DNA of 64,000 nt from Zygnema cylindricum (taxonomy: Eukaryota; Streptophyta; Zygnematophyceae; Zygnematales; Zygnemataceae), in NCBI GenBank assembly GCA_037447655.1, contig JBBHKE010003315.1, positions 64,001 through 128,000 of the forward strand. Reading direction: 5' to 3'. Positions 2,476 through 50,899 of this stretch are shown piece after piece (position 1 is the stretch's first letter; every line of letters begins with the position of its first letter). A program made the position numbers and the translations under genes. The notes below the pieces were generated by a model that did not search any database, had not been told where the DNA came from, and was given only the letters and a program-made list of their open reading frames with translations.

Positions 2476-2998
2476 AAAAATGAGGCTCATTACCATGAAA
2501 ATATAATTTCCGTACTGAAAATTCTATGGGCTCCATTGCCACACAGAAATCGCAGATCCAAAGAAACTTATCTAGATAGTGCCGACTCCAAGTTGATACA
2601 AACCTAAATGACTGACACCATGACAGTCAAAACCCCAATAATGATTCACCCTTTTGAAAACAAAACCTTCTGTGTGCTCAGTTCCACCACAGAATGCAAA
2701 GCTTGAACATGTGATTTGGACAATATTCCCCACTTTGACTTTCCCATATAAATACCGCCACCCTGGCAAGAAAAATCTCAGACCCACTACACCCATGTGT
2801 ATTGTGGACTCCCCTTAGTCTGCAGCAAAAAGAATCACTGAAATTGCTCACCCGAGCATTAACTTATGGCCAGCCAAGAATGGCCTATAAGTACAGAAGC
2901 ACTGTGGGAGAGAGGCGGTTACCTTGATTTTTTCTAAGTTCTAAGCTCCCTCTCTAAACCTACTACTAGTGTACCTTAACCAATCAAATGAGTGTAAG

Positions 2999-3046
2999 GT
3001 ACAAGAAGGTACAAGTAGCACTGTACTTCTTGTACGACCATAGTAC
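2999..3046 (-). promoter_or_regulatory. Five-fold GTAC array in LTR
   Basis: Five GTAC cores lie in 48 bp, spaced (reverse strand) N7-N5-N10-N6, the same as in the other LTRs of this family. GTAC is the core bound by SBP-domain transcription factors; binding here is inferred. Confidence 0.6.
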
Positions 3047-3335
3047 GGCATGGTCGCTCCCCTAACGGGTGTTAGTTCTTGAGCCGTAGTTGCTCCCCTC
3101 GTAATATCCGCTATCTAACCATATCATGCCACGTGTCGTCCGCCAACATTGGCTTGGAAACCGCCAAATGTCCACTCCGATGCTTCTGCTCCACTGTGAG
3201 ACGTCGGATCTGAAACCGACAAGTTATCGTGTCCGTTTAAATAGAGTGTCGTTTTGTTTCGTAATCTGCAAAATAAAGTATGTAGATTGGTACCGCGTTT
3301 AAATAAAATTATAACTCAATATACGTGTCGTTTTG

Positions 3336-3408
3336 TCTACGCCTTAGTGGATAGGGCAAAGTGTTACGTCACTTTGTAACCCTATGTTCAAATCCCGTCT
3401 GTTACCAA
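3336..3408 (+). promoter_or_regulatory. tRNA-like Pol III module, antisense to LTR
   Basis: An A-box-like CGCCTTAGTGG and a B-box TGTTCAAATCCC (3384-3395) lie about 40 nt apart, followed by TTTT at 3412-3415. The D-arm-like GGATAGGGC is tRNA-Arg-like. The acceptor stem is not convincing, so it is a tRNA-derived promoter module rather than a tRNA gene. It is antisense to its host LTR, as in every other copy. Confidence 0.6.
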
Positions 3409-6170: not shown

Positions 6171-6460
6171 GACATGGTCTACAAGGTGACACCTGTCAAA
6201 TCGGGAGCCATGGTTCCTCCTCCCATCTTTTCCGGTATCAAATAATATGACGCCACATGGCACCGCGTGATGCTATCTCTGAATGCCGCCAAAAGCTCAT
6301 TTTGCGTGGCGGCTACAATGCTGGCCGTTTGATAATAACATATTTTACACAGTTCATATTCACGTAGATGCATGAATTGTTCCTCTTCGTTAGTCTGATA
6401 TTAATTAGCTGTCACTTTAATGTTTATTGATCTTTGAAACCCGTCACGTGTATTGTTTCG

Positions 6461-6535
6461 TTAATGCCTTATTGGATAAGGCATACCACTACAAATATTT
6501 CCATAGATCCTGGTTCAAATCTGGTATAGAGCAAC
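6461..6535 (+). promoter_or_regulatory. tRNA-like Pol III module, antisense to LTR
   Basis: A D-arm hairpin GCCTTATTGGATAAGGC resembles plant tRNA-Arg. A B-box TGGTTCAAATCT lies at 6511-6522, and TTTT at 6536-6539 would terminate Pol III. It is antisense to the LTR. Confidence 0.65.
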
Positions 6536-6624
6536 TTTTGGTTATTTGTTAGTTGTTTAGAATTCTCTACTTGTACATTTATAAATACCTATTCTACCCT
6601 ACACATTTCATCGTTGACTCTAAG

Positions 6625-6700
6625 CTATAGGCTAAAGCTAACGGCTATTGAGGATGGTAGGTACCAAAATCAAATCATGATTTTGGCAGTCCTCTTTTGG
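6625..6700 (+). promoter_or_regulatory. Second, degenerate tRNA-like module
   Basis: The AAAGCTAACGGCTAT and AAATCAAATCATG blocks resemble the modules at 11462-11548 and 49728-49800 and the AGAGCTAACGGCTA part of the type in LTR1. The B-box is decayed. It lies closer to the LTR start than the first module. Confidence 0.4.
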
Positions 6701-11073: not shown

Positions 11074-11461
11074 GATATGGCCAAAATGTCGACACATGTC
11101 ACATCCGGATTTGTTCCCGTAATCTTTGGAGTCGCCGCAATCTAATGTTGACATGCCACGTGTCACTTGACGTAGCCATGACCGTAAAATGCCAAAAGTA
11201 CATATTCCACGATCGCGGCGCCTATCGTGGCCGTCCGATCGAATCTGACTATATTTATAGCCGTTTAAAATAGATGCGCGGTATTTGTTTTGCGGTCAAA
11301 ACAAATGCGCGGTATCTGTTTCATAGAATTCATAAAATCGTACTCTGTACTATGTATAATTGTATCTTTGCACTACGTTTATATTCCCGTTTAATGAACT
11401 AGTCTACGTGTAACTATTTAAATATTTATCAAACCCTACACGTGCTAGTACTAGCTCTAGA

Positions 11462-11541
11462 CTAAACGGACAAAGCTAACGGCTATCGCAATCATGACAG
11501 ACGGCAAGCACCAGGATCAAATCATGGGTCTGTCAACATTC
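11462..11541 (+). promoter_or_regulatory. tRNA-like module, antisense to LTR
   Basis: The AAAGCTAACGGCTATCG block and a weak B-box AGGATCAAATCA (11512-11523) are followed by TTTT at 11543-11546. It is decayed but in the same position and orientation as other modules. Confidence 0.45.
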
Positions 11542-11731
11542 ATTTTAGTAAACCTACCATTTATCTACACCTGTCTCTCTTGAGAGCTTAGGCAGCCATG
11601 GCTCTAGCTCCCTTTCCAGCCTTCAGTGACTACAACAAGTGTGGGGGCTTGGAGAAGGGAGTTAGAGGCAGACTGCCTCTGCTCTTTTTTCTATCCTAAT
11701 AAAGACCTAGAAAATACTCAAATACCAACAC

Positions 11732-12075: not shown

Positions 12076-12283
12076 TGTTGAAATAAGTAGTTTTTAATAT
12101 ATTTTCTAGGTCTAAATTTATTAGAAAAGAAAAACTAGGCAGCCTGCCTCTATCTCTTCTCTCTCTCTCGCCCCCATACTTGTTGTAGTCACTGAAGGAG
12201 AGAGAGAGAGAGAACAATGGAGCCATGGCTGCCTCAACTCCATAGGAAGGACTAAAGAGTGGCTTAAGCCACTCTCAACAAAA

Positions 12284-12372
12284 GGTTGAGTCCGGAAGGA
12301 CTCGAACCCCCGACCGGTAGAGCGCGGCGTAGCCGTTAGCTCTAACCAGTCTGTCGTAGAAGTCCGTTAGGA
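12284..12372 (-). promoter_or_regulatory. Antisense tRNA-like Pol III module (type I)
   Basis: On the reverse strand: an A-box-like ACTGGTTAGAGC (12350-12339) and a perfect B-box GGTTCGAGTCC (12307-12297), then TTTT (12283-12280). The T-stem can form with two G-U pairs. The acceptor stem does not pair, so aminoacylatable tRNA is unlikely; a Pol III promoter is what is conserved. Confidence 0.7.
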
Positions 12373-12736
12373 GATATAGGGTTTCATTACTATTTAAACT
12401 ATTGTAATGTACTAGATTCATTTAACTGAAACTCTTAACGCCACGCATAGATACAGTTCTATAAATTACGAAGTACTGTACTTGTTTGAAATGGATATCG
12501 CGCATTTTGTTTCGAGAGCGAAACAAATATCGCGCAAGTATTTATTACGGCCGAGATTGAATTTCACGTCAAATCTAACGGCGCACATCATCGCCGAAAT
12601 CCCGGAATGGTCATTTTGGCATTTAGTGACGTGGCATGACCTAGCGCCACGTGGGAAGACATCATTCGGTCGCGGGAATTGCGAGGAACGTACGGACGAG
12701 TGGAAAGTGGACACGCGTCCACTTAATGGTCTAGTC

Positions 12737-12783
12737 GTACAGAGGCCGTACAAAAGTACATCGGCAGTAGTACTTTCTTGTAC
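12737..12783 (+). promoter_or_regulatory. Five-fold GTAC array in LTR1
   Basis: Spacing N7-N4-N10-N6, about 110 bp upstream of the TATAAAT box. One base shorter than in other LTRs. Confidence 0.65.
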
Positions 12784-13097
12784 TATACAGTTTTTTGATT
12801 GGTTCGTACAGGCATTAGATAGGAGCTGTGAGAGGGAAGTAGGAAAAACTAGGACTTAGGAAAATTTAGGTAGATAGTCCTCTCACTGAGAGTTTGTATA
12901 AATTGGCATCTTTGCCACCCTATAACTTATCGCCTGGTTGGCCTTTTTCAGTGACTCTTTTTTCTACGGACTCAGGGGAGTTCAGGCTACACACGGGTGC
13001 AGTCAAATTGTCAGTTTGCCTTCTTGGACAGCAGTGGTTGTGGCTTAAAGTGGGTTAGTTAAATACTATCTTGAGGCTTCCTGTATTCTGTGGTCCG

Positions 13098-16000
13098 ATG
13101 GAGGACACAGAATTGCAGGTTATAGGCCCACCCTCTAGGGTGCCCACCTTTAATGGATCTGGGTTCATCTATTGGGAAGCCATGATGATGGGAGCTTTGT
13201 GTGAAAAACGATACTGGGGTATCGTCAGTGGACAAGTGAAACGTCCACCTTCGCGAACTCCACCAGGATTTGGGGGAGTAAGGTTTTCTGCAACAACGGC
13301 TGCCTCAGCGAAGGAGGCAGATGATGGGGACAGTAGTGTGTCCGAAAAGGAGAAAGGGAAGGAGACACCCCTCACTCCTATTGCCACAGTATCGGGAGCG
13401 GCGACCGTGAAGACCGTGGAGAACGATACTCAAATGTGGGAGGATGTAAACATGGCTGCAAAGAACTTCATTCTAAGGCACCTCACTCAAGGTTTGGCCA
13501 CTCCTCATCTTCACATTTACAAGGCCGAGGAGTTGTGGGAGAGTGTGGTGGAGATTTATAGAGCTGGAACTATTCAGGAGCTCCAGTTGGCTGAGCAAAA
13601 GCTATTGAGTTACACTTACAAAGGAGGAAAGATGTTAGATTACTGTAAGGATCTTTTTTGTTTGTATATGGAAATGGAAAGTGCCGGGTGGACAAGTACA
13701 ATGAAAATGAAAGTTAACACCCTTATCATGAAATTACCAGATGAGTTCGAAAACATAGTGTACCGAGTACAGGGATTGCCTGATAGTTCATGGAAATGGA
13801 ACACAGTAGTCATGATGATACTTGTGCAGGAAAACACAATGGAGATTAGGAGAGGAGGAAAGAGCATTCAAGCTCTAGCAGCAAGAGGGGACCGATGGGG
13901 GAAGGACCCGAAGAAACCTTATAGAGGGGAAAAAGATCATTCTAGAGGACAGAGGCCCCCAAAGGGTCTTTGTCATTATTGCAAAAAGTAGGGACACTTT
14001 ATCGCAGATTGTGTCAAGCTATCAGAGCTGAGGCTCCAAGAGAACCGTGGAGGGGGTCTTCCGGAGGGAAGAAAAAGGCACTTGTGGTTACAAAAGTGTC
14101 AGGAGAAACCGAGGATGAGTCCTCTGAGGAGGATGGGGAGATTCTTCTTTACGAGAGTCTGGAGGAGAAGGAGATTCCTCGGAGGCAGAAGTGTGCCCTT
14201 GGAGCAATCTGGGAAGCTCCACAGGAAGGATGGATCATCGACTCAGGTGCATCCATGCATATGTGTCGTGATAAAGAACTCTTCACTAAGTTAAGAAAAA
14301 TTCCTACCGTAGAGATAGAGTATGGGGATGGGAGGGTGGTTACTACAGATCTTGTGGGATCAGTAGATTTGATAGTCTTAGTGGAGGGTAAGACTTCTAT
14401 ACTTACATTCTCAGATGTACTTTACATTCCTTAGCTGAGTAAAAATCTTGTCTCTACGTCTGTGTTAGATGACAATGAGTTTGATACCTTAACTAGAAAG
14501 GGAGTCTTTACAGCTAAGTATGGGGATGAAATTTACTTCACAGCAGATAAGGGTAGCCAAGGAATGTTTAGGCTTAATCTGAGTAATGAAAAGAAGAATG
14601 CTTACTATGTTGGTGTTCCTAAGATGATGATTTGGCATAAGCGGTTGGGGCATGTGCATTTTGATAGGTTAAGGGAAATGAAAAAAGTTGGGGTAGTAGA
14701 TGGCATTCAGTTTGGGGATAATGAAATGATGGATGGTTGTAGTGGTTGTGCTCAAGGTAAGGCTCATAAACTTCCCTTTCCCAAAGCCACGATATATAGA
14801 GGTGAGAGTGTGTTAGATTTGGTCCACACAGATATTTGGGGACCTGGAAAAGTACCTTTGGTTGGAGGAAAGAGGTTTATGATGACAGTAACTGATGACT
14901 GGTCTAGATACTCTAGAGTCTACTTTGTGAAAACAAAATCTGAAGCATCAACTTACTTCAAAGAATATAAAGCTTGGAGTGAAAAGTTGCATGAAACCCC
15001 CATTAAGAGGATAATGAGTGATAATGGGGGGGAATATACCTCTAACGAGTTTGAGGAATATCTGAGAGATGAGGGAGTGCAGCACCAGAAAACTGTACCA
15101 TATAACGCGGAACAAAATGGGATAGCTGAGAGGCTGAATCGAACACTAGGAGATAGTGTACGCAGTATGTTGGCTGACAAGAAAATAAGAAAGAGATTTT
15201 GGGCAGAAGCAATGAACTGTGCCAACTACATCAAGAATAGAGTCCTTACCTCAGCTGTAAAGGGAGTGACACCTTAAAAGATATGGGTTGGAAGGAAACC
15301 AGATATCTCACACCTTAAAGTATTTGGTTGCCAAGTTTACAGTCTTGACACGGATAGGAAAAACTAGAAACTAGATGCTAAGGGAAAACATGGATACTTT
15401 GTGGGATATGATGAGGATGTTAAGGGATATAGAGTCTATGACTTAGCAAAGAAAGATATCATTCTGGTCAATCACTTAGTTGTCATGGATGAAGGGAAGT
15501 CATTTGACCCCTTCAAATATACAAAGAAGATAAGGATCTGATTTGAGTCCGAAAGTGAGGAGAACTTGGTCGTTCCCGAAAGGGACATGAGTGAAAGCGT
15601 GATTACAGATTCAGGGGAGATCTAAGATACAAAAGACTCACCGAAAACCTCACATACTCCTATGGACTTCGAGGAGATAGAAGAAGCGGGACAAGAACCG
15701 GTTTCCATGGACAGGGGAGCCGATGAGACAATGAGAAGAAATCTAAGACTTCCATCCATTCTTGCTTCGGAGTTTGAGAAAGCAAGGAGGAGCAGCAAAA
15801 GGATACATGAAAAACAAGCTGCCCATAAGGTAACTAAGCTATCTCATTAGATGAGCCTCAGTCTTACTTAGAGGCAGTGAATAGTCTAGAGAAAGAAAGA
15901 TGGATTAGAGCCATAAATGATGAGATGGATTCTATCATGGAAGCAAATACTTGGGAACTAGCGGATTGCCCTCCAGACCGAAAACTTATTGGATGTTAAT

Positions 16001-17442
16001 GGGTATTTAAACTAAAACTGAACCCAGAAAATAACAATTGAGAGGTATAAGGCTCGATTGGGAGCGAAGGGGTTCACCCAAAAAGAGGGGATTGACTATG
16101 AGGTGACCTTTGCTCCAGTTGTTTGGTTCCCATCGGTAAGGATTCTCCTCAGTCTGGCCGCAGCGGAAGACATGGAAATATACCAGATGGACATTAAGAC
16201 TGCATTTTTTAATGGTGTGTTAGAGGAAGAAATTTTTATGAGGCAACCCGAGGGGTTTGTGGAAGAAGGAGAAGTGAGCAAAATCTGCAGGCTCATAAAG
16301 TCCTTATATGGACTGAAACAGGCTCCTCGACAGTCGAATAAGAAACTAGATGAGTTTCTCACCGATCTGGGATACATCCGGATCAGCTCTGACCATTCTA
16401 TCTAAATGTTTGAAGATGAGAATGATGTCATTTTTATTGCAATATATGTGGATGATCTGCTTGTGTTAAGTAAGTCTTTGGAGAATATCAATAGGCTAAA
16501 GAAAGATCTTAGGGACAGATTTGATATGAAGGATTTAGGGGAGGCAAAATATATTTTGGGGATCCAAATGGAGAGAGATAGGGGGAAGAAGATTATCAGA
16601 CTTACTCAGAAAGAAACAATAGGTAATATGCTTGAAAAATGCCATATGGAAAATGGTAACAGTTGTACCACTCCCATGGACTTGAAAAAAATAATTGATG
16701 GGAGTGTAGAAAGAGGAGTGATGATCTTAGATGATCAGATGAGTCCAGAGGAGAGAGAGTTTATGAAGTATATCCCTTATAGACAGGTCGTAGGAAGTTT
16801 AATTTATTTTATGAACTGTACCAGGCCGGACATAGCGGCAACAGTTGGAGTACTCAGTAGGAGTCTTAATGATCCTAGGTAGAGAGACTGGGAGGCAGCC
16901 AAGAGAGTCATGAGATATCTGGTTAGAACCAGAGAATTATAGTTGCATTTGGGAGGGGAGCACACTGATATCACCACTTGGATTGATGCCAATTATGGGG
17001 ATGCACCTATGAGAAGATGCACTTCTGGATATGTTTTGTATGTGGGGGAAGGAGCTTGTTGTTGGAGCAGTAAGCAACAAAAGGTAGTTGCTGTCTACTA
17101 TGGAGGCTGAGTATATGGCGTCTTGTTCTGCAGTAAAAGAACTAATGTGGGTGAAGTCATTGTTGCAAGAACTGGGATATATGAAGGAAGGAGTGCATGA
17201 AATCTTATGCGATAATCAAGCTGCATCGCAATCGCAGCCAATCCAAAACATCATTTCAAAGCAAAACATATGGACATAAGATTGAGCTTCGTAAGAGAAA
17301 AAGTTGAAAATAAAATTTTAAATCTTGTGTATAGACCTGATGAAGAAATGGTGGCTGACATGATGACCAAACCTGTGCCCTCTCCTAAATTAAAATATTG
17401 TCGGGAGAAATGCGGGTTAAAAGAAAAATTAAAATTTGACTA
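13098..17442 (+). pseudogene. Copia element A Gag-Pol, decayed
   Basis: The polyprotein starts at an ATG inside LTR1 (MEDTELQ) and reads through the primer-binding site. Order: Gag (to about 13960); CCHC zinc knuckle CHYCKK with a stop at 13988; frameshift near 14055; protease with WIIDSGASMHM at about 14235; stop at 14432; integrase zinc region (HKRLGH, CSGCAQGK) and catalytic core (HTDIWG, MSDNGGEY, QNGIAERLNRTL); stop at 15275; RT with YVDDLL near 16448; RNase H to 17442, with the SDASYGDA motif changed to IDANYGDA. There are at least eight stops or shifts, so it is inactive. Domain order integrase before RT makes it Copia. Confidence 0.93.
13118..13132 (+). promoter_or_regulatory. Primer-binding site of element A (one mismatch)
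   Basis: GGTTATAGGCCCACC differs by one base from the family site GGTTATGGGCCCACC, which is complementary to the anticodon arm of plant initiator tRNA-Met. It directly follows the LTR. Confidence 0.8.
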
Positions 17443-17664
17443 GAAAATAAGGGGAGTGTTGAAATAAGTAGTTTTTAATATATTTTCTAGGTCTAAATTT
17501 ATTAGAAAAGAAAAAGTAGGCAGCCTGCCTCTATCTCTTCTCTCTCTCTCGCCCCCATACTTGTTGTAGTCACTGAAGGAGAGAGAGAGAGAGAGCAATG
17601 GAGCCATGGCTGCCTCAACTCCATAGGAAGGACTAAAGAGTGGCTTAAGCCACTCTCAACAAAA

Positions 17665-17753
17665 GGTTGAGTCCGGAAGGAGTCGAACCCCCGACCGGTA
17701 GAGCGCGGCGTAGCCGTTAGCTCTAACCAGTCTGTCGTAGAAGTCCGTTAGGA
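17665..17753 (-). promoter_or_regulatory. Antisense tRNA-like Pol III module (type I)
   Basis: Near-identical to the module of LTR1: one substitution in the T-arm region (GAGTCG instead of GACTCG on the + strand) weakens the B-box. Confidence 0.68.
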
Positions 17754-18117
17754 GATATAGGGTTTCATTACTATTTAAACTATTGTAATGTACTAGATTC
17801 ATTTAACTGAAACTCTTAACGCCACGCATAGATACAGTTCTATAAATTACGAAGTACTGTACTTGTTTGAAATGGATATCGCGCATTTTGTTTCGAGAGC
17901 GAAACAAATATCGCGCAAGTATTTATTACGGCCGAGATTGAATTTCACGTCAAATCTAACGGCGCACATCATCGCCGAAATCCCGGAATGGTCATTTTGG
18001 CATTTAGTGACGTGGCATGACCTAGCGCCACGTGGGAAGACATCATTCGGTCGCGGGAATTGCGAGGAACGTACGGACGAGTGGAAAGTGGACACGCGTC
18101 CACTTAATGGTCTAGTC

Positions 18118-18164
18118 GTACAGAGGCCGTACAAAAGTACATCGGCAGTAGTACTTTCTTGTAC
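18118..18164 (+). promoter_or_regulatory. Five-fold GTAC array in LTR2
   Basis: Same sequence and spacing as in LTR1. Confidence 0.65.
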
Positions 18165-18498
18165 TATACAGTTTTTTGATTGGTTCGTACAGGCATTAGA
18201 TAGGAGCTGTGAGAGGGAAGTAGGAAAAACTAGGACTTAGGAAAATTTAGGTAGATAGTCCTCTCACTGAGAGTTTGTATAAATTGGCATCTTTGCCACC
18301 CTATAACTTATCGCCTGGTTGGCCTTTTTCAGTGACTCTTTTTTCTACGGACTCAGGGGAGTTCAGGCTACACACGGGTGCAGTCAAATTGTCAGTTTGC
18401 CTTCTTGGACAGCAGTGGTTGTGGCTTAAAGTGGGTTAGTTAAATATTATCTTGAGGCTTCCTGTATTCTGTGGTCCGATGGAGGACACAAAATTGCA

Positions 18499-20868
18499 AT
18501 GGGGACAGCAGTGTGTCCGAAAAGGAGAAAGGGAAGGAGACACCCCTCACTCCTATTGCCACAGTATTGGGAACGGCGACCGTGAAGACTGTGGAGAACG
18601 ATACTCAAATGTGGGAGGATGTAAACATGGCTGACAAGAACTTCATTTTGAGGCACCTCACTCAAGGTTTGGCCACTCCTCATCTTCACATTTACAAGGC
18701 AAAGGAATTGTGGGAGAGTTTGGTGGAAATTTATAGAGCTGGAACTATTCAGGAGCTCCAGTTGGCTGAGCAAAAGCTACTGAGTTACACTTACAAAGGA
18801 GGAAAGATGTTAGATTACTGTAATGATCTTTCTTGTTTGTATATGGAAATGGAAAGTGCCGGGTGGACAGGTACAATGAAAATGAAAGTTAACACCCTTA
18901 TCATGAAATTACCAGATGAGTTCGAAAACATAGTGTACCGAGTACAGGGAATGCCTGATAGTTCATGGAAATGGAACACAGTAGTCAGGATGATACTTGT
19001 GCAGGAAAACACAATGGAGATTAGGAGAGGAGGAAAGAGCATTCAAGCTCTAGCAGCAGGAGGGGACCGATGGGGGAAGGACCCGAAGAAACCTTATAGA
19101 GGGGAGAGAGATCATTCTGGGGGACAGAGGCCCCCAAAGGGTCTTTGTCATTATTGCAAAAAGCCGGGACACTTTATTGCAGATTGTGTGAAGCTATCAG
19201 AGCTGAGGCTCCAAGAGAACCGTGGAGGGGGTTCTTCCGGAGGGAAGAAAAATGCACTTGTGGTTACAAAAGTGTTAGGAGAAACCGAGGAAGAGTCATC
19301 TGAGGAGGATAGGAAACTTCTTCTTGACGAGAGTCTGGAGGAGAAGGATATTCCTCGAAGGCAGAAGTGTGCCCTTGGAGCAATCGGGGAGGCTCCACAA
19401 GAAGGATGGATCATCGACTTAGGTCCATCCATGCATATGTGTCGTGATAAAGAACTCTTCACTAAGTTAAAAAAGATTTCAACTCTAGAGATAGAGTATG
19501 GGGATATGAGAGTGGTTACTATAGATCTAGTGGGATTAGTAGATCTTAAAGTCTTAGTAGAGGGTAAGACTTCTATACTTACATTCTCAGATGTACTATA
19601 CATTCCTCAGCTGAGTAAAAATCTTGTCTCTACGTCTGTGTTAGATGACAAAGAATTTGATACTTTCACTAGAATGGTAGTCTTTACAGCTAAATATGGG
19701 GATGAAGTTTACTTCACAGCAGATAAGGGTAGCCAAGGAATGTTTAGGCTTAACTTGAGTAATGAAAAGAAGAATGCTGACTATGTTGGTGTTCCTAAGG
19801 TGATGATTTGGCATAAGCGGTTGGGGCATGTGCATTTTGATAGGTTAAGGGAAATGAAAAAGCTTGGGGTAGTAGATGGCGTTCAGTTTGAGGATAATGA
19901 AATGATGGATGATTGTAGTGGTTGTGCTCAAGGTAAGGCTCACAAACTTCCCTTTCCCAAAGCCGCCACATATAGAGGTGAGAAAGTGTTAGATTTGTTC
20001 CACACAGATATTTGGGGAATTGCAAAAGTACCTTCGGTTGGAGGAAAGAGGTTTATGATGACAATAACTGATGATTGGTCTAGATACTCTAGAGTCTACT
20101 TTCTCAAAAATAAGTCTAAAGCATCAACTTACTTCAAAGAATATAAAGCATGGAGTGAGAAGTTGCATGAAACCCCATTTAAGAGGATAAGGAGTGATAA
20201 TGGGGGGGAATATACCTCTAACCAGTTTGAGGAATATCTAAGAGATGGGGGAGTGTAACACCAGAAAAATGTACCATATAACCCGCAACAAAATGGGGTA
20301 GCTGAGAGGTTGAATAGAACACTAGGAGATAGTGCATGCAGTATGTTGGCAGACAAGAAAATAGGAAAAAGATTTTGGGCAGAGGCAATGAACTGTGCCA
20401 ACTATATTAAGAATAGAGTCCTTACCTCAGCTGTAAATGGAGTGACACCTTATGAGAGATGGGTTGGAAGGAAACCAGATATCTCACACCTTAAAGTATT
20501 TGGTAGCCAAGTTTACAGTCTTGACACGGATGGAAAAACTGGAAACTAGATGCTAAGGGAAAACCTGGATACTTTGTGGGATATGATGAGGATGTTAAGG
20601 GATATAGAGTATATGACTTGGCAAAGAAAGATATAATTCTGGTCAAACACTTAGTTGTCATGGATGAAGGGAAGTCATTTGACCCCTTCAAATATACAAA
20701 GAAGATTAGGATCAGATTTGAGTCCGAAAGTGATGAGGATTCGGTTGTTCCCGAATGGGACATGGGTCAAACCGTGATTACAGATTCAAGGGAGATCCAA
20801 GATACAGGAGACTCACCTGAAACCTCACATACTCCTATGGACTTCGAGGAGATAGAAGAAGCGGGATA
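18499..20868 (+). pseudogene. Copia element B Gag-protease-integrase
   Basis: A deletion relative to element A joins the LTR end directly to the GGGGACAG segment of gag, removing the primer-binding site and about the first 70 Gag codons. From there a long frame runs to a stop at 20256: rest of Gag, CCHC knuckle (CHYCKKPGHFIADC, near 19147), protease region, integrase with HKRLGH, CSGCAQGKAHK, HTDIWG and RSDNGGEY. The protease signature is changed to DLGPS from DSGAS. Integrase continues after the stop (AERLNRTLG), then shifts frame near 20545 and stops at 20868. The LTR ATG at 18479 is out of frame with gag, so normal translation is lost. Confidence 0.9.
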
Positions 20869-22610
20869 AGAACCGGTTTCCATGGACAGGAGAGCCGATG
20901 AGACAGTGAGAAGAAATCCAAGACTTCCATCATTCTTGCTTCGGAGTTTGAGGGAGGAAGGAGGAGCAGCAAAAGATTACAGGAAAAACAAGCCGCTAAT
21001 AAGGTAACTAAGCTATCTCACCCTAATGAGCCTCTGTCTTACTCGGAGGAAGTGAATGGTCTAGAGAAAGAAAGATGGATTAGAGCTATAAATGATGAGA
21101 TGGCTTCTATCATGGAAGCAAATACTTGGGAATTAGCAGATTGTCCTCCAGACAGAAAACCTATTGGGTGTAAATGGGTATTTAAACTAAAACTGAACCC
21201 AGATAATACCATTGAAAGATATAAGGCTCGATTGGTAGCGAAGGGGTTCACCCAAAACGAGGGGATCGACTATGAGGAGACCTTTGCTCCAGTTGTTGGG
21301 TTCCCATCAGTAAGGATTCTCCTCAGCCTGGCAGCAGCGGAAGACATGAAAATCCACCAGACGGACATTAAGACTGCGTTTCTTAATGGTGAGTTAGAGG
21401 AAGAAATTTCATGAGACAACCCAAGGGGTTCGTGGAAAAAGGAAAAGAGAGCAAAGTCTGCAGGCTCATAAAGTCCTTATATGGACTGAAGCAGGCTGCG
21501 CGACAGTGGAATAAGAAACTAGATGAGTTTCTAACCAGTCTGGGATATATCCGTATCAGCTCTGACCATTCTATCTATGTGTTTGAAGATGAGAATGGTG
21601 TCATTTTTATTGCAATTTATGTGGATGATCTGCTTGTGTTGAGTAAACCCTTGGAAAAGATCAATAAGTTAAAAACAGATCTTAGAAGCAGATTTGATAT
21701 GAAGGATTTAGGGGAGGCAAACTATATTTTGGGGATTCAAATTGAGAGAGATAGGGGGAAGAAGATTATCAGACTTACTCAGAAAGAAGCAATAGGTAAT
21801 ATGCTTGAGAAATTCCAGATGGAAAATGCTAACAGTTGTACCACTCCCATGGACTTGAAAAAAGTAAGTGATGGGAGTGTAGAAGGAGTGATGATCTTAG
21901 ATGATCAAATGAGTACAGAAGAGAGAGAGTTTATGAAGACTATCCCTTATAGACAGGTCGTAGGAAGTTTAATCTATTTTATGAATTGTACCAGGCCGGA
22001 CATAGCGGCAGCAGTTGGAGTACTCAGTAGGAGTCTTAATGATCCTAGGAAGAGGGATTGGGAGGCAGCCAAGAGAGTCATGAGATATCTGGTAGGAACC
22101 AGAGAGTTATGGTTGCATTTGGGAGGAGAGCACACTGACATCACTACTTGGAGTGATGCCAGTTATGGGGACGCACCTATGAGACGATGCACTTCTGGGT
22201 ATGTGTTGTATGTTGGGGAAGGTGCATGCTGTTGGAGCAGTAAGCAACAAAAGGTGGTTGCTCAGTCCACTATGGAGGCTGAATACATGGCCTCTTGTTC
22301 TGCTGTGAAAGAGTTGATGTGGGTCAAGTCCTTGCTGCAAGAACTGGGGTATATGAAGGAGGGAGTGCATGAAGTGTTTTGTGATAATCAAGCGGCCATA
22401 GCAATTGCAGCCAATCCAAAACATCATTTTAAGGCTAAACATATGGACATAAGATTAAGTTTTGTAAGAGAAAAAGTTGAGAATAAAATAGTGAATCTTG
22501 TATATAGATCTGATGAGGAAATGGTAGCGGACATGATGACCAAACCTGTGCCCTCACCAAAGTTAAAATACTGTAGGGAAAAATGTGGATTAAAAGAAAA
22601 ATTAAAATAG
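20869..22610 (+). pseudogene. Copia element B reverse transcriptase-RNase H
   Basis: After a stop at 20868 and another frame change, RT resumes (KPIGCKWVFKLK near 21160, DIKTAFLNGELEEE). One further shift near 21410 leads into an uninterrupted 399-codon stretch to 22610 holding YVDDLL (near 21620), the TRPDIAAAVGVLSRS box, and RNase H motifs SDASYGDA, TMEAEYMA and CDNQAA. The C-terminal half keeps all expected catalytic signatures, so decay is recent or patchy. A polypurine tract follows at 22617-22628. Confidence 0.9.
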
Positions 22611-22833
22611 ACTAGAAAATAAGGGGAGTGTTGAAATAAGTAGTTTTTGTATTTTCTAGTTTAAAATAAATTAGCGGAAACATATATAAGAAATGATGGC
22701 AGCCTGCCACCATCTCTTCTCTCTCTCCCCCATAGTTGTTGTAGTCACTGAAGGAGAGAGAGAGCGATGGAGCCATGGCTGCCTCAGCTCCATAGGAAGG
22801 ACTAAAGAGTGACTTAAGTCACTCTCAACAAAA

Positions 22834-22920
22834 GGTTGAGTCCGGCAGGACTCGAACCCTCGACCGGTAGAGCGCGGCGTAGCCGTTAGCTCTAACCAGT
22901 CTGTCGTAGAAGTCCGTTAG
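22834..22920 (-). promoter_or_regulatory. Antisense tRNA-like Pol III module (type I)
   Basis: B-box GGTTCGAGTCC and A-box-like ACTGGTTAGAGC are intact; the T-run is TTTT at 22833-22830. An adjacent palindrome (22806-22825) has a compensatory G-C to A-T change compared with LTR1. Confidence 0.7.
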
Positions 22921-23254
22921 ATAATATAAGGTTTCATTCATATATAAACTGTTGTATAGTACCGAAATGATCTAACTGGAATATGAAACGAAACCAACAT
23001 AGAACTTGTTAAGGTTTAGTGCGAAACGTCATTTCGCACGAAACAAATGAAACAGACACTTTGAACGGTCGACATTTAATGTCGCATTTAATCCGACGGC
23101 GCACGTCGTCGCCGAGATCGCGGAATGGTCACTTTGGATTTTATGGACGTGGCATGACGTGGCGCCGCGTGGAAGAATAACATTCGGTCGCGGGAATTCC
23201 GGAGGAAATACGGACAAGTGGAAAAATGACACGCGTCCACTCAAGAGCCTTGTC

Positions 23255-23302
23255 GTACATCGGCCGTACAGAAAGTACATCGGCCATAGTACCTTTCTGT
23301 AC
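23255..23302 (+). promoter_or_regulatory. Five-fold GTAC array in LTR3
   Basis: Spacing N7-N5-N10-N6; a sixth GTAC follows downstream in GGTTCGTAC. Confidence 0.65.
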
Positions 23303-23721
23303 TTTACAGTAATACGATTGGTTCGTACTTTAGTAGATAGGGGTTGTGAGAGGGATTTAGGACTTAGGAAATATTTGGTAAACAGACACCTCTCTCTAAG
23401 AGAGTTTTGTATAAATTGGCATTTTTGCCGGCTCATAACTTATCGCCTGGTTGGCCGTTTTCAATGATTCTTTTTGCTACAGACTCAGGGGAGTCCAGGC
23501 TACACAGGTGTGCAGTCAAATTGTCAGTTTGCCTTCTTGGGCAGAAGTGGTCATGACTTAAAATGGGTTAGTTAAATACTATCTAGAGGCTTCTTGTATT
23601 CTGTAGTCCAATGGAGGACACACAATTGCAGCTGTCCGATCTGCATAAAGTATTTACAAGAAGTCATCTGTGCGTCAAACTCGCCGCTAAAAAAGAAGCA
23701 AAAAAAATGAAAAAATAAACC

Positions 23722-24214: not shown

Positions 24215-24452
24215 AATCCCTAGTGACTCGACAGCATAAGAGAACACGGCGTTGTAGAAATTAATGGTTTTTAAAGTATTTTCTAGGTCAGAAATAAGAA
24301 AGAAGCCGAGGCAGTCTACCTTTAACTTCTCTCCAACTCTCAAACTTGTCCCAGCCACTGAGAAATTGGAGAGGAAGCTAGAGCCATGGCTACCTAGGCT
24401 ATCGTGAGGTTTACGGGAAATATATATTGGGGGTTTATTAATTAAAAAGATA

Positions 24453-24534
24453 TGCGGCGGCCCCAGGATTTGAACCTAATACCTGCCGGACGGCAAGCTG
24501 CCGGTAGCCGGTAACCTTAACCGTTATGTCTTGA
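24453..24534 (-). promoter_or_regulatory. Antisense tRNA-like Pol III module (type II)
   Basis: Reverse strand: CATAACGGTTAAGG near the A-box position and a perfect B-box GGTTCAAATCC (24474-24464), then TTTTT at 24448-24444. The body differs from types I and III apart from the promoter boxes. Confidence 0.65.
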
Positions 24535-24911
24535 AGTAGTGTTATATACTATACAGTTTGATAACTATTTATTCATTAATACGTAGGATAAATCATTTAA
24601 CTATAATTGTTTACGGAATACATAGAACCGGTAGTGTAAAAGTACGAATTAGGGTACGGATAAGAAATCAATACCGCGCATTGATTTTGTAAAGCGAAAC
24701 AAATACCGCTAATGTATTTATTACGGCTCCGATCAAATGTGAATTTAATCGGACGGCCAGAATTAGCGCCGAGATCTCGGAAGAAGAATTCGGCAGTTTC
24801 TGGGCATCGCCACATCGGATGACACGTGGCGAAATTACATTGGATCGTGGTATCTCCGGAGATTACGGCACCGAATCCGGATATGACATGTGTCGACATT
24901 TAGGCCATGTT

Positions 24912-25275: not shown

Positions 25276-26238
25276 ATGGAGGTCTCAGAGTTTCAGGTTA
25301 TGGGCCCACCCTCTAGGATACCAATCTTTAATGGAATTGGCTTCATTTATTGGGAAAGTATGATGATAGGAGCTCTATGCGAAAAAAGGTTTTGGGGGAT
25401 AGTGAGTGGGCGGTTGGGGCATCCATCAAGTCTTAGAATTCCTCCAGGGTTTGGAGGAAGTAGATTCACCAGGAAAGAGGATCCACCTTCAACGGAGGAA
25501 ATAAAAGAAGGAGAGGTGGTGGGGAAAGGAAAAGAGAAGGAGACGACCACACCAATAGCAACTGGTTCGGCATTCATGTCACCTATTCCGAGGAACGAGG
25601 AGAATGATATTGAAACCTGGGACTTCAACAATATGGCGGCAAAGCACTTCATCCTACGCCATCTCACTGAAGGACTTGCATGTCCTCATTTGCAGGTAGA
25701 AAGGGCATCCGTCCTTTGGATGGCTCTCATAGAGATGCACCGAAGTGGTACGATTCAACAACAACAGTTGGCTGATCAGAAAGTTAAGAAGTATGTATAC
25801 AAAGGGGGAAATATGTTGGATTTTTGCAATGAGCTTGCTACACTCTTCATTGAGCTAGAGAGTGCGGGAAAAGATTTTAGTGAAAAAGAAAAGGTTAACT
25901 GTTTACTGATGAAGTTACGTGATGAGTTCAAGAACATAGTCAACCGTGTGCACGACTTGCCAGACTCAAGGTGGATGTGGAACTCAGTGGTAGGGATGAT
26001 TCTCGTTCGAGAGAATTCGATTGAGATCCGAAGGGGAGGAAAGAGTGGCCAAGCCTTGGCAAGAGCGACTGATTGGAGGAACAAGGATTCCCGAAAACTG
26101 GTCAAAAACTATGGGGGTAGGGAGCAAAAAAAACAAGCCGAGGAGTTCGAACCAAGGCTCCCAAAGGTTTATGTCATTTTTGTAAGAAACCAGGGCACTA
26201 TATGGCAAGGTGCACTAAGCTTACCGAGCTTCGGTTAA
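25276..26238 (+). pseudogene. Element C Gag
   Basis: The ORF starts at an ATG in the LTR (MEVSEFQVMGPPSR) and contains the family Gag segments: FIYWESMMIGALCEKRFWGI, the WDFNNMAAKHFILRHL region and the KKYVYKGGNMLDFCNEL helix region. Near 26170-26200 the CCHC knuckle is in a different frame from the upstream Gag, and the frame runs to a stop at 26236. Gag packages the element RNA into cytoplasmic particles. About 320 codons, close to the Gag part of its relatives. Confidence 0.88.
25296..25310 (+). promoter_or_regulatory. Primer-binding site of element C
   Basis: GGTTATGGGCCCACC, perfect complement of the anticodon stem-loop segment of plant initiator tRNA-Met. It is in frame within gag (encodes V-M-G-P plus the next residue). 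Confidence 0.88.
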
Positions 26239-29632: not shown

Positions 29633-29849
29633 AAAATTATGGGAGTGTAGAAATTAATGGTTTTTAAAGTATTTTCTAGGTCAGAAATAAGAAAGAAGCC
29701 GAGGCAGACTACCTCTAACTTCTCTCTCCAACTCTCAAACTTGTCGCAGTCACTGAGAAATTAGAGAGGAAGCTAGAGCCATGGCTACCTAGGCTATCCT
29801 GAGGTTTACCGGAAATATATATTTGGGGTTTATTAATTAAAAAGATATG

Positions 29850-29930
29850 CGGCGGCCCCAGGATTTGAACCTAGTACCTGCCGGACGGCAAGCTGCCGGT
29901 AGCCGGTAACCTTAACGGTTATGTCTTAAA
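29850..29930 (-). promoter_or_regulatory. Antisense tRNA-like Pol III module (type II)
   Basis: Same as the module at 24453; B-box GGTTCAAATCC intact, TTTTT at 29843-29839. Confidence 0.65.
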
Positions 29931-30296
29931 GTAGTGTTATATACTATACAGTTTGATAACTATTTATTCATTAATACGTAGGATAAATCATTTAACTATA
30001 ATTGTTTACAGAATACATAGAACCGGTAGTGTAAAAGTACGAATTGGGGTACGGATAAGAAATCAATACCGCGCATTGATTTTGTAAAGCGAAACAAATA
30101 CCGCTAATGTATTTATTACGGCTCCGATCAAATGTGAATTTAATCGGACGGCCAGAATTAGCGCCGAGATCTCGGAAGAAGAATTCGGCGGTTTGTGGGC
30201 ACGATGACACGTGGCGAAATTACATTGGATCGTGGTATCTCCGGAGATTACGGCACCGAATCCGGATATGACATGTGTCGACATTTAGGCCATGTT

Positions 30297-30344: not shown

Positions 30345-30698
30345 GGAGGAGAAATCTGATTGGTTCCATACATCAGTAGATAGAGTCTGTGAGAGAGATA
30401 GGACTTAGAAAAATTAGGAGATAGGATCCTCTCTCTTAGAGAGCTTCTGTACAAAAGGTCAACTTTGACCCTCCATAACTTACAGCTCAGGGGAGCAAAT
30501 TCAGAGATTCTTTTTGCTATCGACTCAGGTGAGTCTTCCCTTCACATGGGTGCAGGTGGTCAGAGTTTTTGTCTGCCAGGGTGGCAGTTATTTTTGCTGA
30601 AACACAAAGGGGTCAGGATTATCCTAGAGGCTTCTTGGAAGCTGTCCACTCTGAGGACTTATGGAGGTCTTAGAGTTTCACGCGTATCCACCACGGAA

Positions 30699-31218: not shown

Positions 31219-31428
31219 TGTTGAAATCACTAATTTAGGGAAGGTATTTTCTAGGTCTTAATAAGGAAAAATAACTAAAAGAAAAAGCACAGGCAACTTG
31301 CCTCCACCTTCTCTCTCTAGCCCCTACACTTGTTGTAGTCACTGAAGGAGAGAGAGGGCGGTGGAGCCATGGCTACCTCAGATCCATAAGCAGGACTAAA
31401 GAGTGACCTAAGTCACTCTCAACAAAAA

Positions 31429-31514
31429 GACTGAGTCCAACAGGACTCGAACCTCTGATCGGTAGAGTGAGGCGTAGCCGTCAGCTTTTGCCAGTCTGTC
31501 ATAGTAGTCCGTTA
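31429..31514 (-). promoter_or_regulatory. Antisense tRNA-like Pol III module (type I)
   Basis: B-box GGTTCGAGTCC intact, A-box region partly decayed (CTGGCAAAAGC), TTTTT at 31428-31424. The neighbouring hairpin at 31399-31418 keeps its 8-bp stem. Confidence 0.62.
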
Positions 31515-31841
31515 GGATACACAATGTTTGATATCTATTTAAGCATTAGCGAGATCATTAATTCGTTCAACGGAACAATAAATTATAGACATAGAAACTA
31601 GTTGAGTTTTAGTGCGTACGAAACAAATGTGCCGAACATTTATTATTTTGGACGGCGAACATTAAAAGCCGGTTTGGATCTGACGGTCAGCATCATCGCC
31701 GGAATCTTCGAATAGCCACCTTGGCGGTTTTCGGACGTGGCATGACCTGTGACACGTGGCAAGATATTATTGGGAAGGAGGGATCCCGGGGAGCATGACG
31801 ACAATTTCGAAGGAGACAGACGTCCCCTCCATAGACTTGTC

Positions 31842-32973: not shown

Positions 32974-32991
32974 AAAAGGGTGAAAAAGAGT

Positions 32992-35072: not shown

Positions 35073-35276
35073 TGTTGAAATTTATGTATTTTCTAGGTCT
35101 GTGTTGGAAAAATAAATAGAGTGTTGAAAAGAGGTGACTAATAGTTCACTTCTATATTTTAGTTAGAATGTAAAGAGAGAGAGAAAGAGAGGACCAAAGG
35201 CACGCCATGGTTGCCGCATCATTTAGAAGGAGGAAGAATGAATTAGAAAGTATTTTACTAGTTTTAGCAAAATACT

Positions 35277-35352
35277 GCCGCTGGCCGGGTTTGAACCGGG
35301 GTCTGTAGGCTACTAAAATAGACCAACGCCTTATCCATTAAGTTACTTACGA
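35277..35352 (-). promoter_or_regulatory. Antisense tRNA-Arg-like Pol III module (type III)
   Basis: Reverse strand: TAACTTAATGGATAAGGC matches the A-box/D-arm of plant tRNA-Arg, and CGGTTCAAACCC is a good B-box; TTTT follows at 35272-35269 within a hairpin. The T-stem forms four pairs; no clear acceptor stem. Confidence 0.72.
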
Positions 35353-35640
35353 AACGATACACGTGACGGGTTTCATAAATATATAAACATTAACAAAACA
35401 GCTAATTAACAGCAGACTAACCAAAAGGAGCAATTTCTGCATGTACGCGAATCTGAACCGTGTAAAATATGTTTTGATCGGACGGCCGGCATTATAGCCG
35501 CCACGCGAAGTGAGCTTTTTGGCGGCATACGGATATAGCGTCACGCGGTGCCACGTGGCGCCACATTATTTGATACCGGAGAAGATGGGAGGAGGAACCA
35601 TGGCTTCCGATATGACAGGTGTCACCTTGTAGACCTTGTC

Positions 35641-35688
35641 GTACAATGGTCGTACAATAAGTACATCGCCCATTGTACCTTCTTGTAC
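35641..35688 (+). promoter_or_regulatory. Five-fold GTAC array in element D 5' LTR
   Basis: Spacing N7-N5-N10-N6. Confidence 0.65.
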
Positions 35689-38133: not shown

Positions 38134-38366
38134 AAAGAAAGTAGACTAGAAAATAAGGGGAGTGTTGAAATTTATGTATTTTCTAGGTCTGTGTTGGAAA
38201 AATAAATAGAGTGTTGAAAAGAGGTGACTAATAGTTCACTTCTATATTTTAGTTAGAATGTAAAGAGAGAGAGAAAGAGAGGACCAAAGGCACGCCATGG
38301 TTGCCGCATCATTTAGAAGGAGGAAGAATGAATTAGAAAGTATTTTACTAGTTTTAGCAAAATACT

Positions 38367-38442
38367 GCCGCTGGCCGGGTTTGAACCGGGGTCTGTAGGC
38401 TACTAAAATAGACCAACGCCTTATCCATTAAGTTACTTACGA
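38367..38442 (-). promoter_or_regulatory. Antisense tRNA-Arg-like Pol III module (type III)
   Basis: Same sequence as in the 5' LTR, both promoter boxes intact. Confidence 0.72.
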
Positions 38443-38729
38443 AACGATACACGTGAGGGTTTCATAAATATATAAATACTAACGAAACAGCTAATTAACA
38501 GCAGACTAACCAAAAGGAGCAATTTCTGCATGTACGCGAATCTGAACCGTGTAAAATATGTTTTGATCGGACGGCCGGCATTATAGCCGCCACGCGAAGT
38601 GAGCTTTTTGGCGGCATACGGATATAGCGTCACGCGGTGCCACGTGGCGCCACATTATTTGATACCGGAGAAGATGGGAGGAGGAACCATGGCTTCCGAT
38701 ATGACAGGTCTCACCTTGTAGACCTTGTT

Positions 38730-38777
38730 GTACAATGGTTGTACAATAAGTACATCGCCCATTGTACCTTCTTGTAC
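38730..38777 (+). promoter_or_regulatory. Five-fold GTAC array in element D 3' LTR
   Basis: Spacing N7-N5-N10-N6. Confidence 0.65.
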
Positions 38778-48786: not shown

Positions 48787-49130
48787 GAGAAGGCTATTGA
48801 GTGGACGCGTGTCCGCTTTTAACTCGTTCTTGTGTTCTCCGAAATTCCCGCTACCGAATGTTATCTCTCCACGTCTCGCCAGATCACGCCACGTTCAAAA
48901 ACCACAAAGGTGACTATTCTGAGATTTTGGCAGCGATATGTGTTGTCAAATCATAAACCGACATGTAATATTAGTCGTCGAAACAAATGTCCGATTCATT
49001 TGTTTTGTGTGAGAAAATGCTCGCACTATATATTACTTAGTTCTATGTTCTTTCATTTGTCATTCCGTTAATCAGATTCAATATCAAAACACAGTTTAAA
49101 CAAATATCACACCCTATCTATGTTAACGAA

Positions 49131-49209
49131 CTCCTACGACAGACCGATTAGAGCTGACGGCTACGCCTCGCTTTGCCGGTCGAAGGTTCGAGTCATGCCG
49201 GACTCAACC
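49131..49209 (+). promoter_or_regulatory. tRNA-like Pol III module, antisense to LTR (type I)
   Basis: A-box-like ACCGATTAGAGC, B-box AGGTTCGAGTCA, then TTTT at 49210-49213. The hairpin at 49218-49237 keeps an 8-bp stem. Confidence 0.65.
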
Positions 49210-49419
49210 TTTTGTTGAGAGTGACATTAGTCACTCTTTAGTCCTGCCTTTTGAACTAGGATAGCCATGGCTTAACCACCCTCTCTATCCTTCAGTGACT
49301 AGAACAAGTATGGTGGCTAGAGAGAGGAGGTGGAGGCAGGCTATCCGCCCTTTTATTTTTCCTATGTTACTAATCTATTTTCACCTAGAAAGTACCTTAT
49401 AAATCTAGTAATTTCAACA

Positions 49420-50016
49420 TACCACGTGTCACTTGACGTGGTCGTGACCGAAAACCGTTAAAACACCTATTCCGCGATCTCGGCACCTATCGTGGCCGTC
49501 CAATCAAAATCGGCTTTCAACTCTAGCAGTCGAAAACAAATGCACGGTATTTGTTTCGTCGTCAAAACAAATGCGCGGCATTTGTTTTGCGAAGTACCGT
49601 AAGTCGTACTTATACTCTAACTGTGTCTATGTGCCACAAGTCTATTCGTGTCGTTAAATGAATTTATCTATGTTTACATCTTTATATATTTAACGAACCT
49701 TATAAACCTCAGCACTGGTCCTAGACTATAGGTTAAAGCTAATGACTACTGTTGACTTTGACGGGCGGTTGGTACCAAGATCAAATCCTGGGTCCGTCAA
49801 GTAAATTTTGGTAAACCTACCAAAAACTACTGCCTGTCTCTCTCTCTGGACAGCATAGGCAGCCATGGCTCTAGCTCCCTCTCTAACTTTCAGTGATTGC
49901 GACAAGTGTGGGAGTTGAAGACAGGAGTTAGAGGTAGATTGCCTCTGTTTCTTTTTTGCATTTTATTTTACATTTTTCGACCAAGAAAAATACTAAAATA
50001 ACCATTAATTTCTACA
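49420..50016 (-). mobile_element. Copia LTR fragment, reverse strand
   Basis: Starts inside the CCACGTGTCACTTGACG block shared with 11140-11160 and ends at TCTACA, the inverted LTR start. It abuts element E, which probably inserted into it. Confidence 0.75.
49728..49805 (+). promoter_or_regulatory. tRNA-like module, antisense to LTR fragment
   Basis: GGTTAAAGCTAATGACTA and B-box-like AGATCAAATCC, then TTTT at 49806-49809. Similar to 11462-11541. Confidence 0.5.
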
Positions 50017-50242: not shown

Positions 50243-50899
50243 TGTTGAAATAAGAAAACTGTAATTCCTATCTTACTTGTAGTTCTTATGGTTGAGACAG
50301 GATTGAAGCTGCACAAGAAGGGAAGCCATGGCTATCCATGGTAGTCAAAGCTAACGGAGGGAGAGAGAGTGAATCACACCAAAAGGGTTGACGTGACATG
50401 AATTTTTTCGTAGGTCTTACATAGTCAGATTAGTTTTCTACCTTATCCACTAAGTCGTATAAGAGTCGTTACGGATGCAAGGTTTGATACGGTAATAAAC
50501 ATCACTGTGCGGATTATACCAACCAAACTAGCACACATAAAGCAAAAATACGGCCCGCCCCATAATCGGACAAGCGCCAAAAAAATATACAATTTGATCG
50601 AAAGGCTCGCGTGAGCGCCGAAAGACCGGAATGGTTATTTTGGCGGCTTACGCCCAAGGAGCAACAAAATGACACGTGGCCACATTTCATTGGACGTCGG
50701 AGAAGGAGGAGACAAAACCATGGTGTTGGACATGGATGCTATCACGAGTGGAGTAAGGCCCTCACTGGGGTGAGGTTGGTCAAAATACTTGTCTGTCTGG
50801 GTGGTACATACTTCATTAGAAAGGCACCTATCCAAATATTGCCTAAAGGCTTTATATAAGGTGTGCATTCTGTGTACCTATAGAGGTCACAAAATTACA
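50243..50899 (+). mobile_element. Copia LTR, internally deleted
   Basis: Starts TGTTGAAATAAG after the RNase H fragment and ends CAAAATTACA near 50899. At 657 bp it lacks the GTAC array and the TATA region; a decayed tRNA-like segment (ACCTTATCCACTAAGT complement) remains near 50386-50480. Confidence 0.7.

Follow-up and report, generated by a model that had tools for sequence, protein, structure and literature searches.

Why should the long terminal repeats (LTRs) of a Copia lineage carry, turned against their own direction and always near the same place, what resembles a tRNA-type promoter of RNA polymerase III (Pol III)? The question is raised by a stretch of 64,000 nucleotides of Zygnema cylindricum (GenBank assembly GCA_037447655.1, contig JBBHKE010003315.1, positions 64,001 to 128,000), hereafter the window. 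A preliminary description of the window, made from its letters, had proposed that its Copia LTRs share an antisense tRNA-like unit in which promoter boxes rather than tRNA function are kept. The answer developed below is that the unit is probably a selected, tRNA-derived antisense Pol III unit located in the U3 of an autonomous Copia lineage.

Much of the window is occupied by paired and nested LTRs of one Copia lineage, whose elements measure ~6.4 kb, hold gag-pol domains and end in LTRs of ~1 kb. The features of these elements on which the argument draws are the following.

12076..13117, plus strand: LTR A1 of a Copia element, 1042 bp, TG...CA
12139..12232, no strand: inverted repeat near the LTR start, containing the GAGCCATGGCTRCCT motif (sequence)
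18471..20255, plus strand: open reading frame (ORF) with copia gag, Pol beta-barrel, gag-pre-integrase and integrase core domains, between LTRs A2 and A3
21411..22607, plus strand: ORF with an RVT_2 reverse transcriptase domain, between LTRs A2 and A3

LTR A1 has a twin with 99.5% identity at 17457-18498, and both belong, with the LTR at 22629-23630, to a tandem LTR-internal-LTR-internal-LTR array (12076-23630) whose internal parts measure 4339 and 4130 bp. Among the A and B elements, internal parts span 4130-4350 bp and contain gag, integrase (IN) and/or reverse transcriptase (RT) domains. The order gag, integrase, RVT_2 between A2 and A3 is the copia order, and places the element among Ty1/copia elements. 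The autonomous Copia context claimed in the preliminary description is thus borne out by the gag, integrase and reverse transcriptase domains between the LTRs; judged by its coding content, the lineage appears autonomous in kind, with frames split over several ORFs, and we claim no intact or active copy. The C element at 35073-39258 has CATGA on both sides, a 5-bp target-site duplication, and an exact duplication of this length was absent from 8 other spans (several of them solo, nested, or one base off). Its internal part of 1995 bp holds a gag domain only and its LTRs are 99.0% identical, so it can be considered a recent, non-autonomous but coding element.

The long inverted repeat near the LTR start is present in most sub-families, and its core motif is more highly conserved than the Pol III-like unit; further down LTR A1, a TATA box was judged by eye near 12895. 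An open frame with a gag domain begins upstream of the LTR end. Immediately after the LTR, the same stretch, GGTTATRGGCCCACC, stands at 13118-13132, 25296-25310 and 36168-36182; we take it to fit the anticodon region of initiator tRNA-Met and presumably to be a half-tRNA primer site, and Drosophila copia primes from a half-tRNA. Twenty-two viral contigs with this primer-site 15-mer were regarded as chance matches, and a relative of the lineage was confirmed in no viral contig. Outside the genome, reverse transcriptase identity did not exceed 47% among the best 120 of 1522 matches, and the gag ORF had zero relatives at E<=1e-5. The window also contains a near-palindrome of ~1.3 kb at 59996-61334 (92% identity to its own reverse complement), a 622-aa ORF at 54478-56346 that is non-LTR reverse transcriptase-like by eye, and ORFs at 30465-31238 and 32919-33662 that by eye resemble Gypsy gag and pol pieces.

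Recognized by the general definitions of the A-box and B-box, the unit of LTR A1 is composed as follows.

12280..12399, minus strand: Pol III-like unit of LTR A1, from T-run to TATA-like word (profile match at 12281-12399, and alignment)
12390..12399, minus strand: TATA-like word, antisense GTTTAAATAG (sequence)
12346..12358, minus strand: A-box-like word, antisense TACGACAGACTGG (alignment)
12298..12308, minus strand: B-box, GGTTCGAGTCC (sequence)
12280..12283, minus strand: T4 run, terminator-like (sequence)

The preliminary description had put this unit at 12284..12372 and built it from an A-box, a B-box and a T-run; its interval holds the A-box and the B-box and the three components were all recovered, with the T-run falling just outside at 12280-12283 and the TATA-like word, which precedes the A-box by 41 nt, having been missed. 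At each of the 13 LTR positions that it had listed, a profile of the unit matched in antisense; the profile was made from 22 LTRs, 9 of them from the window, whose matches therefore arise partly by construction. The further units in the window are given below, and rest on profile matches unless stated otherwise.

17662..17780, minus strand: unit in LTR A2
22831..22949, minus strand: unit in LTR A3
31426..31543, minus strand: unit in LTR A4
49094..49212, plus strand: unit in LTR A5, minus-strand element
24445..24571, minus strand: unit in LTR B1
29840..29966, minus strand: unit in LTR B2
35274..35388, minus strand: C-type unit in LTR C1, with tRNA-Arg-identical bases at 35320-35340
38364..38476, minus strand: C-type unit in LTR C2, with tRNA-Arg-identical bases at 38410-38430
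6422..6538, plus strand: C-type unit in LTR C3, minus-strand element
6581..6697, plus strand: second unit in LTR C3, D/E-like by eye
3297..3401, plus strand: degenerate C-type unit beside the minus-strand LTR piece 2519-3055 (weak match, E 4e-5)
11417..11545, plus strand: unit in LTR D1, minus-strand element
49681..49808, plus strand: unit in truncated LTR E1
50440..50490, minus strand: fragment of a C-type unit

The degenerate unit at 3297-3401 lies at the expected distance from its LTR piece. LTR C3 (5645-6868) holds two different units ~160 bp apart within 6422-6697, and this C-type and D/E-like pair, standing side by side, looks like the gain of a second unit.

Is the unit a peculiarity of the window or a property of the lineage? 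The assembly covers 352.8 Mb in 2689 contigs, and the GAGCCATGGCTRCCT motif, which lies outside the unit, occurs in it 10,590 times (5322 + 5268), versus 22 (10 + 12) for the reversed pattern. LTR pieces were fetched at the first 80 of 100 listed GAGCCATGGCTRCCT places; taken in contig order they come from contigs C1-C30, and some are the LTR pairs of one element. The unit was present in 79 of these 80 pieces (profile, E<1e-10), and the sole piece lacking it, L087, is split near LTR position ~213 by a C-type element. As a second sample, 20 stretches of 10 kb (200 kb in all) were selected regardless of content, on contigs already known to hold an A-type LTR. LTR models excluding the unit and the unit profile matched the same 8 of these 20 stretches, with 16 unit matches, all antisense to the LTR, of which 14 lie within aligned lineage LTRs and 2 (L032) beside aligned LTR pieces. 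From this sample 14 LTR starts were matched, 13 of which entered the 22-LTR set, the 14th ending at the stretch edge; the best B-box-like word fell inside the unit in 20 of the 22 set LTRs, and outside it in L033b and L046, which show a degenerate unit in the alignment. Other Copia elements, recognized by eye at L029 and L030, gave no unit-profile match at E<=1e-3. A host AP2/ERF ORF of the random 200 kb (L042) had its four best matches in Closterium (75-78% identity across 15-16% of the query), which places the host near that streptophyte alga; a large subunit of RuBisCO was looked for and not found, as would be expected of an assembly without the plastid. The lineage-wide presence beyond the window that had been foreseen was accordingly found in both samples. 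A tRNA-derived SINE with copies outside LTRs was considered and rejected, as 16/16 matches in the random 200 kb lie in or beside lineage LTRs; rare free copies of the unit elsewhere are possible.

The unit sits ~205-330 from the LTR start and is antisense in every case seen, with the antisense order TATA-like word, TAACA-like word, A-box with a D-arm-like stretch, B-box and T4. All spacings derive from one alignment. The TATA-like word starts 41 nt from the start of the A-box in 96/100 units; the B-box starts 49 nt after the A-box start in 22 of the 100 and 55-57 nt after it in another 66; and a T4 follows at no more than 30 nt from the B-box in 93, as compared with a T4 in 21% of 1197 control windows. 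The interval between T4 and the LTR inverted repeat is variable, with 21 lengths. The predicted antisense RNA would be 87-102 nt long, with a median of 98 (93 units). The best B-box words in the 80 pieces were GGATCAAATCC (22), GGATCAATTCC (12) and GGTTCGAGTCC (7), and many B-boxes have GGATC in place of GGTTC, a form which we take to resemble the T-loop of the eukaryotic initiator tRNA. With A-box, B-box and T-run in order and at gene-like spacing, the unit has the layout of a type 2 Pol III gene. Rigid spacing is nevertheless not special to the Pol III boxes, because another conserved word upstream lies 28 nt from the TATA-like word, also in 96/100 units.

Twenty host tRNA loci served for comparison, 19 of them measured for layout and 16 used in sequence comparison. 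In the 19 measured genes the best TATA-like word is scattered, starting at -11 to -60, and a T4 lies downstream in 13, so that the unit and the host tRNA layout match loosely; the upstream layout of the unit is presumably nearer to that of a textbook plant tRNA gene than to a fixed host pattern. The distance from A-box to B-box start, 49-57 nt in most units, is 5-13 nt longer than the 44 nt of one host tRNA-Arg counted by eye. Set against the window, the random sample and the 80 pieces, the 16 host tRNA sequences gave their best match, of 21/21 bases, between positions 13-33 of tRNA-Arg(TCG) and the units of C1 and C2 (E 5e-4). Between A-type units and the T-arm of a tRNA-Asn, identity was 74-86% across 21-31 bases (E 0.04-0.34); such matches say little by themselves, because others of equal strength occur outside the units. 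A tRNA gene or pseudogene was rejected, the cloverleaf going unrecognized by tRNA models in the sequences tried: ARAGORN reported 0 tRNAs in the window, Rfam gave no match above gathering score in the window, and its tRNA model, run on the window and one C-type unit with a cutoff of E<=10 and on 20 of the 80 sampled pieces with one of E<=1, produced no match either.

Chance was assessed in several ways. Scanning the window for boxes (B-box of 10/11 or better, A-box of 8 or better, T4 required) gave 13 sites, against a mean of 2.0 and a maximum of 6 in 100 shuffles; these sites include family copies that are not independent, and a few lie outside LTR units. For 35 LTRs, hand-picked for diversity from 102 aligned, the joint box score was 19.4 in antisense, 13.4 in sense and 13.7 in shuffled sequence; antisense exceeded sense in 34/35, and 73/2100 shuffles reached the observed score. 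Among 69 representatives, the box columns hold 1.25 bits and the remainder of the local U3 stretch 0.73, and 0/264 circular shifts were as high; L087 and L123, split by insertions, were excluded from this and later analyses. When 17 LTRs are considered over their whole length, with windows of 13-20 bases taken around each box, the conservation percentiles are 0.35 for the T-run, 0.47 for the A-box, 0.73 for the B-box and 0.93 for the TATA-like word: the boxes are local peaks, and other parts of the LTR are equally or more conserved. In one young family, a set chosen by its similarity in this very region, variable sites number 2/38 in the boxes and 13/213 in their neighbours.

These figures bear on the simplest alternative, that a tRNA-like piece hitch-hikes in the LTR as an inert relic, without any use. 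The boxes have decayed in some copies, such as that at 3297-3401, and the use of the unit is deduced from sequence, both of which such a relic would accommodate; what makes it improbable is that the boxes remain local peaks of conservation among sub-families with a mean LTR identity of 61%, and that the unit persists in all but one of the 80 sampled pieces. The preliminary description had itself named boxes decaying as fast as their neighbours as the contrary outcome, and across families this is not so, given the circular shifts; its view that promoter boxes were kept without the tRNA fold agrees with boxes that are locally conserved and fit no tRNA model.

Whether the antisense strand in particular is favoured was approached through predicted folding, for which 52 of the 56 non-A units had a T4 in range. 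Mean fold z-scores were -2.71 (20 A-type) and -1.54 (52 others) in antisense, -2.18 and -1.17 in sense, and -0.84 and -0.59 in control pieces; antisense was the more stable strand in 13/20 A-type units and 27/52 others. Helix alignments exclude C1, C3, L123 and L094, with near-identical units merged. A structure picked out by eye, which contains the T-arm and its flanks, gave in the 56 non-A units a covariation of 0.239 versus 0.134 when shuffled (0/500 as high), and slid versions of it gave 0.06-0.10. In the same structure, pairs changed on both sides were 8 versus 7.1 in shuffles (194/500), and the pair-type count was reached by 41/500 shuffles. This covariation is owed chiefly to two columns that show two alternative pairs, so few events may lie behind it. 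RNAalifold found no structure on the 56-unit alignment. The A-type hairpins pair in 90% of cells, and showed no covariation beyond shuffles. Wobble pairs as proof of an antisense RNA were unsupported, since the counts of G-U versus A-C (35 vs 39; in further sets 11 vs 16, 2 vs 7 and 12 vs 4) favour no strand; a count of 149 G-U against 62 A-C for the antisense structure, with 70 against 69 for the sense one, came from a badly grouped set and was set aside. A folded RNA product is possible on these models, and its predicted stems look to us too short for an ordinary plant miRNA precursor.

Such strand neutrality gives room to a second alternative, in which the conserved feature belongs to the sense strand, as a Pol II regulatory sequence or a 3' U3 RNA structure that is box-like through tRNA descent. 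The strand tests giving antisense no preference, the sense RNA folding nearly as well and the equally rigid spacing of the neighbouring non-Pol III word are all as it would predict. We nonetheless hold it to be unlikely: the high box score is confined to antisense in 34 of the 35 LTRs, 93 of 100 units have a T4 where a terminator would be expected, and sub-families have different B-box words that mostly fit the consensus.

The preferred explanation, a selected antisense Pol III unit, would begin with a Copia ancestor whose U3 acquired, in antisense, either a tRNA gene or a SINE of tRNA origin. The cloverleaf would then have been lost, with the TATA-like word, A-box, B-box and T-run retained by selection in many sub-families and, by extrapolation, in thousands of LTR copies. 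We infer transcription of the unit and selection for its use by Pol III: TFIIIC would bind the A and B boxes, TFIIIB would be placed at the TATA-like word, and Pol III would make an antisense RNA of ~87-102 nt terminating at the T-run, before the LTR edge. This RNA, or the act of making it, may serve the element, either as a partner of its own U3 RNA or by keeping the LTR open. That a T-run and a TATA-like word are retained besides the A and B boxes argues for transcription rather than TFIIIC binding alone.

Under a variant compatible with the preferred explanation, what is selected would be the complex of TFIIIC, TFIIIB and Pol III and not the RNA, the complex keeping U3 nucleosome-free or shielding the downstream Pol II promoter from silencing. 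tRNA genes and SINEs can act as boundaries. A tRNA-derived boundary has a precedent in the B2 SINE, in the part of the source covered (PMC8136502). The unit does lie inside the outer edge of the 5' LTR and ahead of the TATA box seen by eye near 12895, and its boxes are retained though no tRNA model fits. On the other side, the T-run is also kept, which a mere binding site does not need, and so is the TATA-like word, whereas solo B-boxes, which are TFIIIC-only sites, are without TFIIIB in the part of the literature covered (PMC5391098). A boundary of this kind is conceivable, if rather doubtful. We regard with slightly less reserve, and still tentatively, the proposal that each LTR also encodes a two-hairpin antisense RNA of ~90-100 nt, made by Pol III and acting in the life cycle of the element.

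A further suggestion is that Pol III factors at the unit lure the elements' own integrase, with the result that copies accumulate within one another. The integration of Ty1 is drawn to Pol III genes, and six junctions in our material read as nested insertions into lineage LTRs (L002, L038, L087, L123, window 49420). They are, however, spread along the LTR, at positions ~213, 285, 406, 475, 597 and 651, though with six cases a preference could escape notice. A whole-genome search for an LTR start placed 60-90 nt upstream of the TATA-like word found 6 matches and its reversed control 1; by eye, 2 of the 6 were LTR-like. Such a lure is the least credible of the readings weighed here, and we consider it very improbable.

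The present elements can be set beside several known systems. Helenus elements (TRIMp3; Kojima, 2024), in the part of the source covered, are short non-coding TRIMs with a tRNA-like sequence in their LTRs; they agree with our unit in having tRNA-derived A and B boxes inside the LTR, with tRNA function mostly lost, in many families, and most fungal Helenus also have anticodon-loop primer sites (PMC10886601). They measure 311-1263 bp and are non-coding, whereas the Copia lineage is ~6.4 kb long, with gag-pol and an antisense unit (PMC10886601, part covered): our elements share the tRNA-like A and B boxes in the LTR, and those of the A and B types are not non-autonomous, short and non-coding. The word "antisense" occurs 0 times in the main text on Helenus (PMC10886601), and its author holds, in the portion covered, that autonomous partners must use Pol II and that a long shared LTR stretch is unlikely (PMC10886601). 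Cassandra TRIMs, also from the plant lineage, resemble the Copia lineage in their conserved Pol III promoter and terminator in the LTRs, and form tandem LTR-internal-LTR arrays like that at 12076-23630 (PMC7215508, part covered). Cassandra is non-autonomous with a 5S-type promoter, according to the same part of that source (PMC7215508), as opposed to the tRNA-type boxes here, and the absence of Rfam matches above gathering score in the window extends to a 5S rRNA-type promoter.

Bovine and simian foamy viruses, in the part of the source covered, carry Pol III miRNA cassettes in their LTRs: here too an autonomous LTR element has a short Pol III unit in its U3, with a hairpin RNA product that in some is two-hairpin (PMC7693620). 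They are mammalian retroviruses whose cassettes are shown expressed, in the same portion (PMC7693620); the unit described here is antisense, tRNA-like and known from its sequence. The novelty claimed in the preliminary description stands in a narrower form: among the matches listed from open-licence titles and abstract starts, none reports an antisense tRNA-type unit in an autonomous LTR retrotransposon, while tRNA-like Pol III boxes in the LTRs of Helenus (PMC10886601) and U3 cassettes in foamy viruses (PMC7693620) are already described in the parts covered. If each LTR were a gene for such an RNA, its ~ten thousand copies (extrapolated) could be the largest Pol III template family in the genome, and a plant-lineage, separately evolved counterpart of the foamy-virus U3 cassettes. 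Should the unit work, Copia elements would be a large hidden source of short RNAs, and small-RNA and tRNA surveys of such genomes may contain a large LTR-borne component. The different box words per sub-family, together with two units in one LTR, make the gain and replacement of units traceable. An autonomous lineage with a complete backward Pol III unit in U3 would join TRIM-type Pol III LTRs and Pol II autonomous elements. The C-module of TRE5-A in Dictyostelium is, in the text covered, another case of a retroelement that retains its own antisense promoter, with an advantage given as unknown (PMC4559204); TRE5-A is a non-LTR element, for which that text describes no tRNA-type Pol III promoter (PMC4559204), and a unit such as that of the Copia lineage would give a testable model for why a retroelement retains an antisense promoter.
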